Shown one piece after another: positions 10,127 through 40,305 of a DNA stretch of 42,697 nucleotides. The DNA lies in the IMG/VR virus record IMGVR_UViG_3300030106_006588, positions 26,432 to 69,128 of that record, one strand, 5' to 3'. The notes under the pieces were generated by a model that was given only the letters and a program-made list of their open reading frames with translations, searched no databases and had not been told where the DNA came from. The position numbers were made by a program, and so were the translations under genes. Position 1 is the stretch's first letter; each line of letters starts with the position of its first letter. The DNA is from a virus.

Positions 10127-11218
10127 ATGGCGACATCAGTTCTACAGCGTCGGAGACAATCCGAGTTGCTAGGCGGTTGGCAGTCCCTCTGTGAGTGGGT
10201 TACATCAACAGATAACAGACTATACGTTGGTTGGTTTGGTGTGTTAATGATCCCTTGCTTACTTACAGCAGCGACATGCTTCATAATTGCGTTCATAGCA
10301 GCTCCTCCTGTAGACATAGACGGTATACGTGAACCAGTAGCAGGTTCTTTCTTATATGGAAACAACATCATCTCAGGAGCAGTCGTTCCAAGCTCAAACG
10401 CAATCGGACTCCACTTCTACCCAATATGGGAAGCCCTCACAGTTGACGAGTGGCTATACAACGGAGGACCATATCAATTGGTCATCTTTCACTTCCTCAT
10501 CGGTATCTCAGCTTACATGGGACGACAGTGGGAACTTAGTTACAGATTAGGCATGCGTCCTTGGATCTGTGTTGCATACTCTGCACCAGTTTCAGCAGCT
10601 TTCGCAGTATTCCTAGTTTATCCATTTGGACAGGGATCTTTCTCTGACGGAATGCCTTTAGGTATTTCTGGTACATTCAACTTTATGTTTGTATTCCAAG
10701 CAGAACACAACATTCTTATGCACCCACTTCACATGGCTGGTGTTGCAGGTATGTTCGGTGGAGCATTATTCTCTGCTATGCATGGATCATTGGTAACATC
10801 ATCTCTTATTAGAGAAACAACTGGTCTTGAGTCACAAAACTATGGCTACAAGTTCGGTCAAGAAGAAGAAACATACAACATCGTTGCAGCTCATGGCTAC
10901 TTCGGTCGTTTGATCTTCCAGTATGCAAGTTTCAATAACAGCAGAAGTCTTCACTTCTTCCTAGCAGTATTCCCAGTAGTTTGTATTTGGCTAACTTCAA
11001 TGGGTATCTGCACAATGGCATTTAACTTAAACGGTTTCAACTTCAACCAGTCAATTGTTGACACTAACGGTAAGATCGTTCCTACATGGGCTGACGTTCT
11101 TAACAGAGCTAACTTAGGCTTTGAAGTAATGCATGAAAGAAATGCTCACAACTTCCCATTAGATCTAGCTTGTGCTGAATCTACTCAAGTTGCTCTATCA
11201 GCTCCAGCTATAGGTTGA
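10127..11218 (+). CDS. psbA: photosystem II D1 protein
   Basis: The 363-residue protein is a complete D1 reaction-centre subunit that keeps host photosynthesis running during infection by replacing photodamaged D1. It has five membrane spans. Intact ligand motifs include [13 protein letters not shown] (Tyr-Z and Asp170 region), [11 protein letters not shown] (Glu189, His190), the HMAG/His198 chlorophyll ligand region, and [14 protein letters not shown] (His332, Glu333, His337, Asp342, Ala344). The DLA before CAEST is the CtpA processing site. The residue equivalent to position 130 is Gln, as in the standard-light D1 form. The ATG at 10127 is chosen because the 17 residues upstream are not D1. 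The GC content looks higher than the surrounding genes. A terminator follows. Confidence 0.99.
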
Positions 11219-16299: not shown

Positions 16300-17373
16300 T
16301 TAATCAATCTCTTGTAATTCCTTTACAAAATATGCTACTTCAGCTAAGTCATCACGCATTAAATTCATGCTTGTAAGTAATGAAATATTAACTTTACACC
16401 TTAAATCACACCTTCTTCCGCCTCTCCTACCTCTTCTTCCACCTCTTCTACCTCTTCTTCCCCTAGAAACACCACCTCTAGATCTAGATGTAGACCTTCC
16501 ACTTCTCCGACTCCTACTTGTATTAGAGCTTCTGCTCCTAGATGTTGATCTCCTGCTTGCACTTCCTGTTGCTCCCCTAGATCTACTACCACGAGTTCCT
16601 GCAGATCCACCTCTTCTTCCACCTCTTCCTACACTACTACCAAATCCTCTTCCTGCAGTACTAGACCTTCTTTTTCTAGCTAAAGCTTTTGCTTTATTTT
16701 GTCGTGCTGTTCTTTTTGCCCTAGATTGGACGGTAGTATATCTACCACCACTACCAGTTTTTCTAGTTGATGCTTCTTCTTTAGCCTTGGTAGCTACCTC
16801 GACTGCTTTTTTTGGAGTATTTGTTGTTTTAATTTGTTTTTTTACTTCACCAAGCTGAGTCCCAACGGTAGAGACTTGATCTCTAACTGATTTAATATCA
16901 CCTTTAAGAGCACCATACTGTTTATCTCTTTCTGCTTTATCTGCAGAGAATCGTTTATCAAATGATTGAGAAATTCCTGCAATTTGTTCTGATGTTGATT
17001 GTCTATCCTTTCTATATTGGTCAGCTGCCTCACCTGCTGCACTGGTGACTTGAGAGATACCTCTACCTATAGCATCTTGTGCTGCACCAGCTATTTTACT
17101 TAAACGATCATCTTTTTTCTCTGTCATAGGAGCATAAAAAGATGCTTGGGCTGATCTAGTGGGATCTTCAGTTTTACGCATTTCTGCTTTTCTAGCACCA
17201 ACTCTTTGAGCAGTACCTCCTACTCCACTACCTATATCTGATAATCTCTTTTTAACTTCAGCTCCATATTTACCAGACACTGGTGTTTGTGCAGCTGCAT
17301 ATCTTATCTGTGTGCCCTCAGTCATAGGGGCATAAAAATCTCTTTGTGCTCTTAAACTATCTCTTCTTAGCAT
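16300..17373 (-). CDS. SR/RG-rich protein with S74-like Cys tail, paralogue 1
   Basis: 357 residues. The N-terminal part contains FYAPMTEG and FYAPMTEK about 65 residues apart, then a coiled-coil segment (about 120-185, DKQYGALKGDIKSVRDQVST). Residues about 200-320 are low-complexity Arg/Ser/Gly (SRGGVSRGRRGRRGGRRGRR). The last 37 residues carry RCDLRCK ... DDLAEVAYFVKEL, a module shared with the next gene and with the virion-region protein at 36998. The SR/RG stretch is likely disordered and RNA- or DNA-binding. CDLRCK has Cys and Lys at the spacing of the S74 Ser-Lys dyad. The stop of the 544-aa paralogue is directly adjacent. Function unknown. Confidence 0.65.
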   Translation of the reverse strand: MLRRDSLRAQRDFYAPMTEGTQIRYAAAQTPVSGKYGAEVKKRLSDIGSGVGGTAQRVGARKAEMRKTEDPTRSAQASFYAPMTEKKDDRLSKIAGAAQDAIGRGISQVTSAAGEAADQYRKDRQSTSEQIAGISQSFDKRFSADKAERDKQYGALKGDIKSVRDQVSTVGTQLGEVKKQIKTTNTPKKAVEVATKAKEEASTRKTGSGGRYTTVQSRAKRTARQNKAKALARKRRSSTAGRGFGSSVGRGGRRGGSAGTRGSRSRGATGSASRRSTSRSRSSNTSRSRRSGRSTSRSRGGVSRGRRGRRGGRRGRRGGRRCDLRCKVNISLLTSMNLMRDDLAEVAYFVKELQEID

Positions 17374-19008
17374 TTATTTAATCTCCTTGACGAAGTATGC
17401 TAATTCAGCTAAGTCATCCCTAACTAAATTAGTATTTATTAATGGAGATATATTTATTTTACACCTGATATCACAACGTCTTCCGCCTCTTCTACCTCTT
17501 CTACCACCTCTTCTTCTAGACCCTCTAGAAACACCACCTCTAGATCTGCTTGTACTTCTTGATCTACTTCCCTGTCCCCTAGAACTTGAAGAACGTGTTC
17601 CGCTTCTAGAACTACCTCTTGATGTTCCACCTCTAGATCTGCTACCTGCACTACCTGCTGATCCACCTCTTCTACCTGCTCTACCTGTAGAACTACGACT
17701 ACTACTTGTTGATCTACCGAAACCTGTACCTGAAGATGTCGATTTTTTCTTTCTTGCTATCCTTGCCCTTGCTAGTGCCTTTGCTCTATCAGCCCCAGAC
17801 ATTGAAGGAGATGCAGTACCTGATTCTTTAGCTGCGTTTCTCGCTTTTGCCATTGCTCTAGCTTTAGCTGCTCCAGGACCCATGCCAGCTTCCATAGGGG
17901 ATTGGACACGAGGTTGTGGCCTACCAAGAGTTCTAACTCTACTAGATTGAGCAGAAGAACCTAAACCACCCATACCACCAGCTTCAACTGCTGCTCCAAT
18001 ATTACTGACCATATCACCAACACTAGGTGTACTCATAGAAGGGACATTAGATTCGCCCATAGTGAAGCGTGTAGGTTTACCTTCTAAAGTGCCTGCTTCT
18101 ACTTTTGGAGTAAATATTTTACTAACATTATCAACAACATTACCTACATTATCCGCTACACCACTTAAAAAATTCTGAGTTCTTTCCATAAGATTTGGAT
18201 TAGGTGACATTCCAGCTTGTTCTCTAAATATTTTTCTTCGCTCTATATTTTCTTTAGCTTTAAAATCTTTTACTGATAATTCAGACGTAGGTTTTTGTTC
18301 TCCTAAATTTCTTCTTGTCAAAACTCCATAAGGGTCTACTGATATTCCAGGTTCGTTATAAACTCTTTGAACTCCTCTCAAGGTACTAATACGCTCGTCC
18401 TTACTTAAAATATTTGGATTTCTAGGATCTGGTTTGCCTTTAAGATCAGTACCAAAAACAAAATTAGAGACTCTTTGTGTAATGCTAGGTTTATCAAATT
18501 TTTGCATTGCTCTTACATATGCCTTATCGTCTATATTTTTTCTTTCTTGTTTAGCTATTCTTCTAGCTTCATTTAATTGTTTTTCTCTTTCAAATGCTTG
18601 ATCTTTTTCGTAGTTTTCTTTTGCATCTGTAGATATATATCTTTTTATAGTTTCTGGCGAATAATCTACTTTATCTCCAAAGAAGTCAGTGCCTGTTTTA
18701 TAATCGAGAGTTTTTCTTTTAAATTTATCTATATCACCATCATACATTTTTTCTGCCATTCTGCTTTGAATATAAGTTTTTTTGTCAACTTTTTTTGGTT
18801 TATCAGTTTCTCTTAATGCATCTCTATAAGGGTCACCAGGATAACTCGGTGTAAAAGTCGAGTCGGTGTAAGACTTTACATTTGCTACTTGAACAGAGGG
18901 TGATTCTACTTTTAGATTAGATGTATCTGTATTTTCTTTATCTCCAGCAAATCTTGTTGTTCTTTTTTCAGCAGAAGCACTACCACTAAAAAACCCTTGA
19001 CTGACCAT
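17374..19008 (-). CDS. SR/RG-rich protein with S74-like Cys tail, paralogue 2
   Basis: 544 residues. The N-terminal 250 residues are charged and helical (KENYEKDQAFEREKQLNEAR) with many Lys. A middle segment (about 255-380) contains PNPNLMERTQNFLSGVADNV and small repeats. Residues about 415-510 are SR/RG-rich (SRGGTSRGSSRSGTRSSSSR). The C-terminus RCDIRCKINISPL ... DDLAELAYFVKEI is homologous to the paralogue at 16300. The paralogues abut with no spacer, which suggests tandem duplication of the C-terminal half followed by divergence. The N-terminal region shows no recognisable catalytic motif. It may be a virion or DNA-associated protein; uncertain. Confidence 0.65.
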   Translation of the reverse strand: MVSQGFFSGSASAEKRTTRFAGDKENTDTSNLKVESPSVQVANVKSYTDSTFTPSYPGDPYRDALRETDKPKKVDKKTYIQSRMAEKMYDGDIDKFKRKTLDYKTGTDFFGDKVDYSPETIKRYISTDAKENYEKDQAFEREKQLNEARRIAKQERKNIDDKAYVRAMQKFDKPSITQRVSNFVFGTDLKGKPDPRNPNILSKDERISTLRGVQRVYNEPGISVDPYGVLTRRNLGEQKPTSELSVKDFKAKENIERRKIFREQAGMSPNPNLMERTQNFLSGVADNVGNVVDNVSKIFTPKVEAGTLEGKPTRFTMGESNVPSMSTPSVGDMVSNIGAAVEAGGMGGLGSSAQSSRVRTLGRPQPRVQSPMEAGMGPGAAKARAMAKARNAAKESGTASPSMSGADRAKALARARIARKKKSTSSGTGFGRSTSSSRSSTGRAGRRGGSAGSAGSRSRGGTSRGSSRSGTRSSSSRGQGSRSRSTSRSRGGVSRGSRRRGGRRGRRGGRRCDIRCKINISPLINTNLVRDDLAELAYFVKEIK

Positions 19009-20650: not shown

Positions 20651-21427
20651 TTACCTAAGTGTTGAAACGTATTGATCTCGAAATGCTGCCATCTCTCTAC
20701 CAGATCTACCTCTTCTACCTCCTTCCATTCGTGATCTCCTCCTTGTAAAGTCTCTACGTCTACCTCTCCTTCTTCTCCTACCACCACCCCTTCTTCTTCT
20801 TCTCCTACCTTCTCCAGCTCTCTCATCGCGAGGGCCAGCATCCTCACTTCCTCTTAAGCCTCTTTCACTTCTTAATGAATCTCTTACATTATCTTTTTCT
20901 TCTCTTTCCATAGACCTCTGCTGTCTTCTCTCATCGGATTTTTCAAACATTTTTTCGAAGAATCTATCTCTTGCCATAGCTCTCTCATCAGGAGAAAAGG
21001 GAGCACGACCACGAGGATCAGATCTTCTTGATATTCTCTGTCTTCTTTCTCTTGGTATAGGAACTTCTCTTTCTGGCGGACCACCAAGTGTTGGGTCTTG
21101 GACGTTAACTCTTGTAGACTCCATTGTGGCACTTGGTTTAGATGGGTCAAAACTCGATGGGCGATCTCCTATAGATCTTTCTAGAGGTGGACTTACAGTT
21201 GGGATACCAACATTTCGTCTATCAGGAGTTCCAGTTAATTGTTGTGTTTGTCCTGTTTCAGGATCTCTCGTAGTAACTTGCATTATTTGCCTTCTTAATC
21301 CTCTCCTACTACCACGTTGATCTCTAAATCTTCCTCTTCTTCTCTTACGTATAGGACCAGAAACCATTCCTACATTTTCAGTAGGCATTATTGGAGATAT
21401 CGTAGCTCTTGGTTTACTTCTTCCCAT
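20651..21427 (-). CDS. arginine-rich basic protein, 258 aa
   Basis: About a quarter of the residues are Arg, in blocks such as KRRRGRFRDQRGSRRGLRRQ and GRRRRRRGGGRRRRRGRRR, with short Pro-rich stretches between. It lacks the Cys tail of the SR/RG paralogues but has a similar composition. It is probably nucleic-acid-binding and disordered, and could be packaged with DNA. Low-complexity sequence gives no fold. Antisense frames over the arginine region are shadows. Confidence 0.55.
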   Translation of the reverse strand: MGRSKPRATISPIMPTENVGMVSGPIRKRRRGRFRDQRGSRRGLRRQIMQVTTRDPETGQTQQLTGTPDRRNVGIPTVSPPLERSIGDRPSSFDPSKPSATMESTRVNVQDPTLGGPPEREVPIPRERRQRISRRSDPRGRAPFSPDERAMARDRFFEKMFEKSDERRQQRSMEREEKDNVRDSLRSERGLRGSEDAGPRDERAGEGRRRRRRGGGRRRRRGRRRDFTRRRSRMEGGRRGRSGREMAAFRDQYVSTLR

Positions 21428-36997: not shown

Positions 36998-37600
36998 ATG
37001 GGTTTTCTTGGTGGTGGTGATCAATTCGGATTTTTAAAGAACAAAAGTTCAGGATCAACAAACCCTTTTTCTCCAGATTTTAAAAGTCCAGTACCACCTA
37101 GTTTTGGATATACCTCTAAGGTAGGTAGTATGTCGGGAATTAATCCTGCGGATTATATGATGAAGAAAAATCCTTTTGAAAAAGAAAAAAAAGGTAATTT
37201 TTTATCACGATTTATTGATGATATGCCAAAATTTGGGAGTGATAAAGAAGGTAAAAGTTTTCTAGATAGATTTAAAGAAGGATATTCTTACAGACCTAAA
37301 GAACAGTCAGGACAAGAACAATTCTACGGAGAACTTGCTAAGAGAATGGGGACTAGTGGGATGGTAGCACCTGTAGCTGAAGGATTAACTTTAACTCAGA
37401 ATGAAACCGGCTCACCAATAGTAGCTCCCGGAACACCAGGATCTCCTGGACTTCTTCAAACAGTTGGTGTACCTCTTTTAGGAGCTTACTTATGTGATAT
37501 AAAAACAAAAGAAGATATAGCTCCACTCTGTACTTCAGAAATTAATGACGTATTATCAGAGTGTGCATACTTTGTAAAAGATTTAAATGAGTGCTCTTGA
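36998..37600 (+). CDS. virion protein with truncated S74-like Cys tail, 200 aa
   Basis: The N-terminal 130 residues are Gly/Ser/Pro-rich with LSRFIDD and LDRFKEG. The C-terminal 36 residues read LCDIKTKEDIAPL ... NDVLSECAYFVKDLNECS. The start resembles the S74 endosialidase-type intramolecular chaperone domain (SDxxLKxDI...PL), with Cys instead of the catalytic Ser and Lys kept at +5. The rest of the S74 domain is in the overlapping ORF at 37587 in a +1 frame. Two other proteins (16300, 17374) carry the same tail. A +1 frameshift, a split domain or a sequencing slip are all possible. Confidence 0.6.
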   Translation: MGFLGGGDQFGFLKNKSSGSTNPFSPDFKSPVPPSFGYTSKVGSMSGINPADYMMKKNPFEKEKKGNFLSRFIDDMPKFGSDKEGKSFLDRFKEGYSYRPKEQSGQEQFYGELAKRMGTSGMVAPVAEGLTLTQNETGSPIVAPGTPGSPGLLQTVGVPLLGAYLCDIKTKEDIAPLCTSEINDVLSECAYFVKDLNECS

Positions 37601-39558: not shown

Positions 39559-40305
39559 ATGGGAAGAAGATCTGCTCCACCACCAAATATTATTAAAGCT
39601 CCTCCTGCTAAGACACCTACACTTACTCAAGTTCCTACGCAATCTTTGGCTACACAGACTGCTTTAAATGAAGCATCTAATAGACAGCAAAGATTAAACA
39701 TGGAGAAAGGAGCAGAATTAGATAGGGTAAATGCAGAGTTTTTTGCAGGGCAAGATATTAGAAGAACTCAGGCGACTGCAGCAGAAAATAGATTATCAAC
39801 AAGAGTAGCAGGTGAGGAGAGTAGAGCAAATATAAGAACTCAAGGACAAGAAGATCGAGCTCAGATTGCTACTACTGGTCTTGAGTACAGAAGAGGATTA
39901 GAGACTGCCGGTTCACAGGATAGAGCATTAACAAGAGTCACTGGACAGGAAACCAGAGCTACTAGAGGTGAAGAGGGTAGACAAACAAGGGCTACACAAG
40001 GACAACTACTAAGAGGTCAGGAAAGACAAATAGGACAAAGAGGATTACAGGAAAGAGCAGCAATTAGAACTACTGGTCAAGAGACTAGAGATCTTAGAAG
40101 AACTGAAGGAGCTCAGACACGTTTAACTGAACAAAGAAGAGGTATAGAGCAAAGAGCTGGTATCAGAACTACAGGTGAGCAAGAACGTGCAGGAACAAGA
40201 GAAAGAGGTAGAGAGCAGAGAGCAACAGACTTGCAACAAGAGATGTTTAGACGCTATAAAGAGAATAGAGATTTCGAACAGGCAACTGGTTCTTATAGAG
40301 TATGA
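39559..40305 (+). CDS. 11-residue-repeat virion protein, 248 aa
   Basis: Residues 1-81 are disordered/Pro-Ala-rich. Residues 82-224 are thirteen 11-residue repeats in perfect register, consensus xxxG-x-E/Q-xRAxx, with Gly at position 4 in 12 and Arg at position 8 in 12. The C-terminus is LQQEMFRRYKENRDFEQATG. An 11-residue period fits a hendecad (right-handed) coiled coil or a helical rod. It lies directly upstream of the terminase genes and overlaps the next start by 4 nt. Function inferred: virion or DNA-binding rod. Confidence 0.65.
   Translation: MGRRSAPPPNIIKAPPAKTPTLTQVPTQSLATQTALNEASNRQQRLNMEKGAELDRVNAEFFAGQDIRRTQATAAENRLSTRVAGEESRANIRTQGQEDRAQIATTGLEYRRGLETAGSQDRALTRVTGQETRATRGEEGRQTRATQGQLLRGQERQIGQRGLQERAAIRTTGQETRDLRRTEGAQTRLTEQRRGIEQRAGIRTTGEQERAGTRERGREQRATDLQQEMFRRYKENRDFEQATGSYRV
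39802..40230 (+). repeat. thirteen tandem 33-bp coding repeats
   Basis: The DNA coding the 11-residue repeats: 13 units of 33 bp (429 bp). The amino-acid pattern is better kept than the nucleotide sequence, so selection acts on the protein rather than recent expansion. Confidence 0.65.

Follow-up and report, generated by a model that had tools for sequence, protein, structure and literature searches.

The C-terminal tails of three proteins encoded in a 42,697-nt stretch of viral DNA (hereafter the window; part of a 69,128-nt IMG/VR record, G000) are, as judged from profile comparisons, the detached N-terminal piece of a bipartite Cys-S74/ICA domain with the catalytic-type motif Cys-Asp-x3-Lys. 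The genome codes for three such tails and one free half of 74 residues, so that the Ser/Cys-Lys segment appears to reside on one protein and the chaperone body on another (Table 1). S74 domains are intramolecular chaperones that lie on the same chain as their client, and the ICA domain cleaves itself before its nucleophile after trimerisation.

Table 1. Tails, free half, client proteins and complete S74 proteins of the genome; positions are those of the window unless a contig is named
Feature	Position	Strand	Remarks
Tail of 357-aa SR/RG protein	16303..16410	-	CDLRCKVNISLLTSMNLMRDDLAEVAYFVKELQEID; type B; orphan, no half after it
Tail of 544-aa SR/RG protein	17377..17475	-	CDIRCKINISPLINTNLVRDDLAELAYFVKEIK; type B; orphan
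Tail of 36998 protein	37493..37597	+	CDIKTKEDIAPLCTSEINDVLSECAYFVKDLNECS; type A; S74 positions 1-15 plus ~20-residue extra segment
Free S74 half, 74 aa	37587..37811	+	own ATG; 14-nt overlap with tail ORF
SR/RG client 1, 357 aa	16300..17373	-	own N-terminus, R/S/G-rich spacer, tail
SR/RG client 2, 544 aa	17374..19008	-	body, R/S/G-rich spacer, tail
Client 3, 200 aa	36998..37600	+	in structural gene block; type A tail at end
Complete S74 fibre-like protein	C1:2815-4560 (L007:2815-4560)		SDIKLK
Complete S74 fibre-like protein	about C1:20125-21981 (L008:6626-8482)		SDYRLK

A preliminary description of this DNA had aligned the ends of the 16300, 17374 and 36998 proteins, noting that C, D and K of a CD-x3-K motif are kept in all three and that neither SR/RG protein has the second S74 half. 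These observations hold throughout. Pairwise alignments of the three window tails beat composition-matched shuffles by a wide margin (Gumbel p 1.4e-15, 9e-8 and 2.6e-8), the C, D and K are invariant in these and in 22 diverse tails, and no half lies downstream of either SR/RG tail. By these comparisons the three tails are homologous. The window's tails are 33-36 aa in length. Across dozens of tail homologs the residues C, D, K, L, D and L are invariant, and the nucleophile position is occupied by Cys in every tail of the split family seen. The SR/RG tails represent a sub-type with one extra residue, termed type B here; they resemble tails from other phages more closely than the 36998 tail of the same genome, and the tails of one genome are in general not notably alike (about 43-47% in the window).

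Compared as profiles with ordinary S74 domains, the tails fall in S74 columns 1-15 (E 3e-6, and 6e-5 when type B is taken by itself); this comparison could have separated the tails from S74 or from each other, and it found them related. Taken singly, the tails give a weak match to Pfam S74 or none, the best E being 0.058. The 37587 ORF, on the other hand, covers positions 16-57 of the 58 in Pfam Peptidase_S74 (E 5e-11, 43 bits versus a cut-off of 22) and columns 14-75 in the profile-profile comparison (E 3e-21). Placed end to end, tail and half match S74 throughout (E 4e-23) apart from one insertion of ~20 residues, which is the second part of the tail, and the joined tail and half of a relative (L147) match Pfam S74 over 1-58 of 58, beginning at the Cys (E 3e-13). 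Folded alone, the tail gives a moderate model (pLDDT 77) with a helix at residues 21-35, where the pLDDT is about 82-86.

A model of the half folded alone, built with 32 sequences, has a pLDDT of 93 and superposes on the ICA domains of MyRF, K1F, GA-1 and T5. The four ICA structures score Z 7.7, 7.1, 6.2 and 5.6 against it, the first unrelated chain Z 2.2, and by this model the half has the ICA fold. It also has a long C-terminal helix resembling the trimer-forming helices of the known structures. The modelled half starts at MyRF 601, K1F 924 and T5 1277, and begins 13-14 residues past the cleavage serine of the superposed structures. As the T5 protein is cut at Ser1264 and its residues 1265-1276 form a loop into the body (PMC4690869), the natural split falls within the loop that follows the catalytic motif. 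The preliminary description had called the half at 37587 the single free copy; this is right for free halves, but the same record encodes, outside the window and beside the split Cys version, two fibre-like proteins that have an ordinary, complete S74 domain and its usual Ser.

The split system is S74-derived by sequence and fold, but it has neither the catalytic Ser nor the intramolecular arrangement, both of them defining features. As in Peptidase_S74/ICA (PF13884; K1F endosialidase 3GW6, GA-1 gp12 3GUD, T5 pb1 4UW8, MyRF 7DC3), whose fold the half shares, the tails display the motif spacing (nucleophile, D, and K at +5) and sit at the C-terminus of virion-type proteins. Ser and Lys are reported to be absolutely conserved in MyRF and its phage relatives, the Lys lying five residues after the catalytic Ser (PMC3742443); the tails retain the Lys and its spacing, but the Ser has given way to Cys, so that there is no Ser-Lys dyad. 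Unlike the known domains, the split system is spread over two genes, with the break in the loop after the catalytic motif, has a ~20-residue extra segment at the split, and includes half-less tails on several unrelated clients. Further, its clients have no evident upstream triple beta-helix, the segments before the tails being, by eye, Gly-rich/hydrophobic or R/S/G-rich.

The half also matches the C-terminal part of two fused, S74-terminated families, phrog_4287 ("DNA ejection protein") and phrog_6121 ("virion structural protein"); in the former the match is confined to the S74 end (340-390 of 392) and does not extend over the full length. Fused IMG/VR proteins with a comparable ending, [S/C]D.R.K, exist, and one of them (L192) has Cys (LCDERAK). 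In contrast to the split system, fused S74-terminated proteins form one continuous chain with neither an extra helix at the split point nor a free half. The tail fibre chaperones of Alteromonas phage V22 (PMC7289586) and cyanophage Pam3 (PMC9608196) are, as outlined in their published descriptions, likewise small separate proteins that aid assembly in trans; going by those descriptions, the difference is that here the separate protein is itself a piece of S74, with the other piece on the clients. No description of a split S74 was found in the open-access literature searched, though this says little about whether one exists.

At least five types of client, spread over three loci, bear tails, and the N-termini of the clients are unrelated to each other. 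Client 1 gave no Pfam domain above the cut-off and the 36998 protein no PHROG match; matches of clients to Spb1_C, phage scaffold, phrog_9427 and Borrelia_orfA were dropped as below the cut-off or composition-driven. The body of client 2 has relatives only in G002 and G001 among the 19 records searched. The C-terminal ~200 aa of client 1 can be aligned to client 2, and the two proteins share the R/S/G-rich spacer (44% over the aligned 260 residues). As the spacer is shared as well as the tail, the C-terminal parts of the two seem to have arisen by local duplication, behind N-termini that are unrelated. In a further record (L043) the tail-bearing protein at the SR/RG position is similar, over its first 57 residues, to an annotated Synechococcus phage tail fibre protein. 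The client at the third locus (L220:1222-2313(-) of G032, also L242 and L247) shows a Hint/intein-like N-terminal domain ahead of its body and S74 tail, though the matches are weak (Pfam Hint E 0.046; phmmer against PDB E 4e-4 to 6y75/6tmm, and about 0.1-0.7 to inteins). A third Arg/Gly-rich protein of 258 aa (window 20651-21427(-)), near the SR/RG genes, has no tail.

Comparison across records shows that tail and half are modules that can be inherited separately. In two of them (L017, L020) the 36998-type protein ends where the tail would start and the half is intact with an ATG, and in a 60-kb record (G002) the 36998-type protein lacks a tail, and the sole tail and half of that record sit on the SR/RG homolog, overlapping by 4 nt in another frame. 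In G032, a genome of another lineage, there are two tails and a single half; the half is at the 36998 locus, and the second tail is on a 363-aa protein at the third locus with no half there. This second tail ends in the same overlap bases, after which the sequence diverges. A type B tail (L014) is found on a homolog of the third-locus protein that is tail-less in the window's genome, and a scan of downstream genes, which otherwise brought up mainly other phages, revealed a short, tail-less protein at the SR/RG locus of G008. Exactly one half is present in each of the 11 half-bearing records above 55 kb (G000, G002, G007-G011, G031-G034), a count biased by nearly all long records having been fetched through the half; tails outnumber halves in only 2 of these 11. 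A 55-kb record (G041), 94% identical to G032 over the compared stretch and also keeping the third-locus tail, was considered as a case of a tail without a half and rejected: colinear with G032, it breaks off about 2 kb before reaching the position of the half, and is therefore not counted against trans action. A free half was not found in GTDB genomes, isolated phages gave no tblastn match to the joined tail and half consensus or to the tail consensus, and a DNA pattern for type B tails had no match, but was too strict for this to carry weight.

These separable modules, and the two tails with one half in G032, are as predicted by the earlier suggestion of a trans-acting chaperone subunit or a shared docking tag. 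We lean towards a bipartite Cys-S74 whose single half acts in trans on several clients that bear the tag. The extra helix of the tail would act as a docking handle that replaces the lost covalent link, allowing the free half to bind any tail-bearing client in trans; half and tail would then rebuild the trimeric S74 chaperone body, with one half gene serving every tagged client, three of them in the window's phage. Less securely, the clients may thereby gain trimerisation or assembly control and, speculatively, the rebuilt domain may cut before the Cys. Cleavage in known ICA domains needs an oxyanion Arg from the triple beta-helix before the cut (PMC4690869); since this Arg-supplying element is not evident in the clients, the domain may serve assembly without cutting. 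It is conceivable, though we think it rather unlikely, that the half, on binding the Cys-Asp-x3-Lys tag, sets off either cutting or a thioester transfer at the Cys, by which one small protein would control the maturation of several clients.

The most serious alternative, to which we give a real but minor chance, is that the tail would be a self-sufficient C-terminal tag for docking or oligomerisation, with another virion component as its partner, and the half would be needed only by the adjacent 36998-type protein. At the 36998 locus, nine type B records retain a well-conserved tail but have no half beside it, and it is on their account that a tag working without the half retains weight. The half was not found in these records, which are fragments of 9-35 kb; the longest ends before the SR/RG locus, where G002 carries its half. 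The window's SR/RG tails are also of type B, and tails without an adjacent half are found on SR/RG, tail-fibre-like and third-locus proteins. Such orphan tails, with dN/dS of 0.04-0.43 where computable by simple Nei-Gojobori counts on these short sequences, are under purifying selection while the bodies of their clients diverge (identity 0.26-0.65), a pattern that counts in favour of the trans-acting half as well as of the self-sufficient tag. However, C, D and K of S74 are invariant in the orphan tails, although a tag that only docks would have no use for them. Moreover, the half persists where the adjacent tail is gone, and in G002 the tail-half pair belongs to the SR/RG protein.

A further alternative is that programmed +1 frameshifting within the 14-nt overlap usually joins the half to the tail, the orphan tails being remnants of recombination. 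Two profile scans of IMG/VR turned up 41 close relatives of the window's half that are free, which makes 42 in all, and no close one that is fused. At all 42 loci the half is a separate ORF with its own start, off the chain of its client. The overlap with the tail ORF is exactly 14 nt at 39 of the 42 loci, down to 46% identity (L168), and this constancy, like the overlap bases at the end of the second G032 tail, is what frameshifting would lead one to expect. The start codon of the half is nevertheless always kept: the 39 halves adjoining a type A tail begin with GTG (31) or ATG (8), and the Arg of the tail at the overlap has the codon CGT in 31 of 31 cases as against a usage of 23% (the lineages being related), CGT being the sole Arg codon that makes a GTG. 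In contrast, the tail stop codon (TGA 33, TAA 5, TAG 1) and the P-site codon before it (TCT, GCT, AGT, AAT) vary, and this variation speaks against +1 shifting as a programmed event. One locus (L010) has another frame relation, in L017 and L020 there is no tail with which the half could be fused, and the orphan tails are not decaying. Fusion by frameshifting is hence improbable, and these codon patterns are more simply read as the half being translated separately. The split does not look like an error; rather, its recurrence marks it as real and old. That the tails are merely chance or low-complexity likenesses of unrelated C-termini, as their shortness and poor single matches to Pfam might suggest, is negligible in view of the shuffle tests, the six residues invariant in dozens of homologs and the profile-profile matches in register with S74.

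A naturally split S74 domain, stable across many marine phages and with several clients per genome, would show an intramolecular chaperone becoming trans-acting. It could serve as a test system for whether the nucleophile segment can reside on another chain, and whether Cys can take the place of Ser. The small C-terminal tag with its 74-aa partner is a candidate trimerisation or release tool, and the split domain offers a handle on the virion proteins of an uncultured group of cyanophages.

The carriers of the split S74 are a family of marine cyanobacterial viruses. The window's genome has a psbA-like gene (window 10190-11218) with about 82% nucleotide identity to cyanophage psbA, and by terminase its nearest isolate is Synechococcus phage S-EIV1 (67.5%), which gave no tail match and among whose structural genes no half was recognised. 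The S-EIV1 terminase CDS (L219:14081-16621) is about 340 codons longer than that of the window and aligns to it in two segments; an insertion, for instance an intein, may be present. Directly before the terminase genes of the window lies a degenerate TTGQETR-type repeat protein (39559-40302), which is longer in relatives (558 aa in G032, L261).
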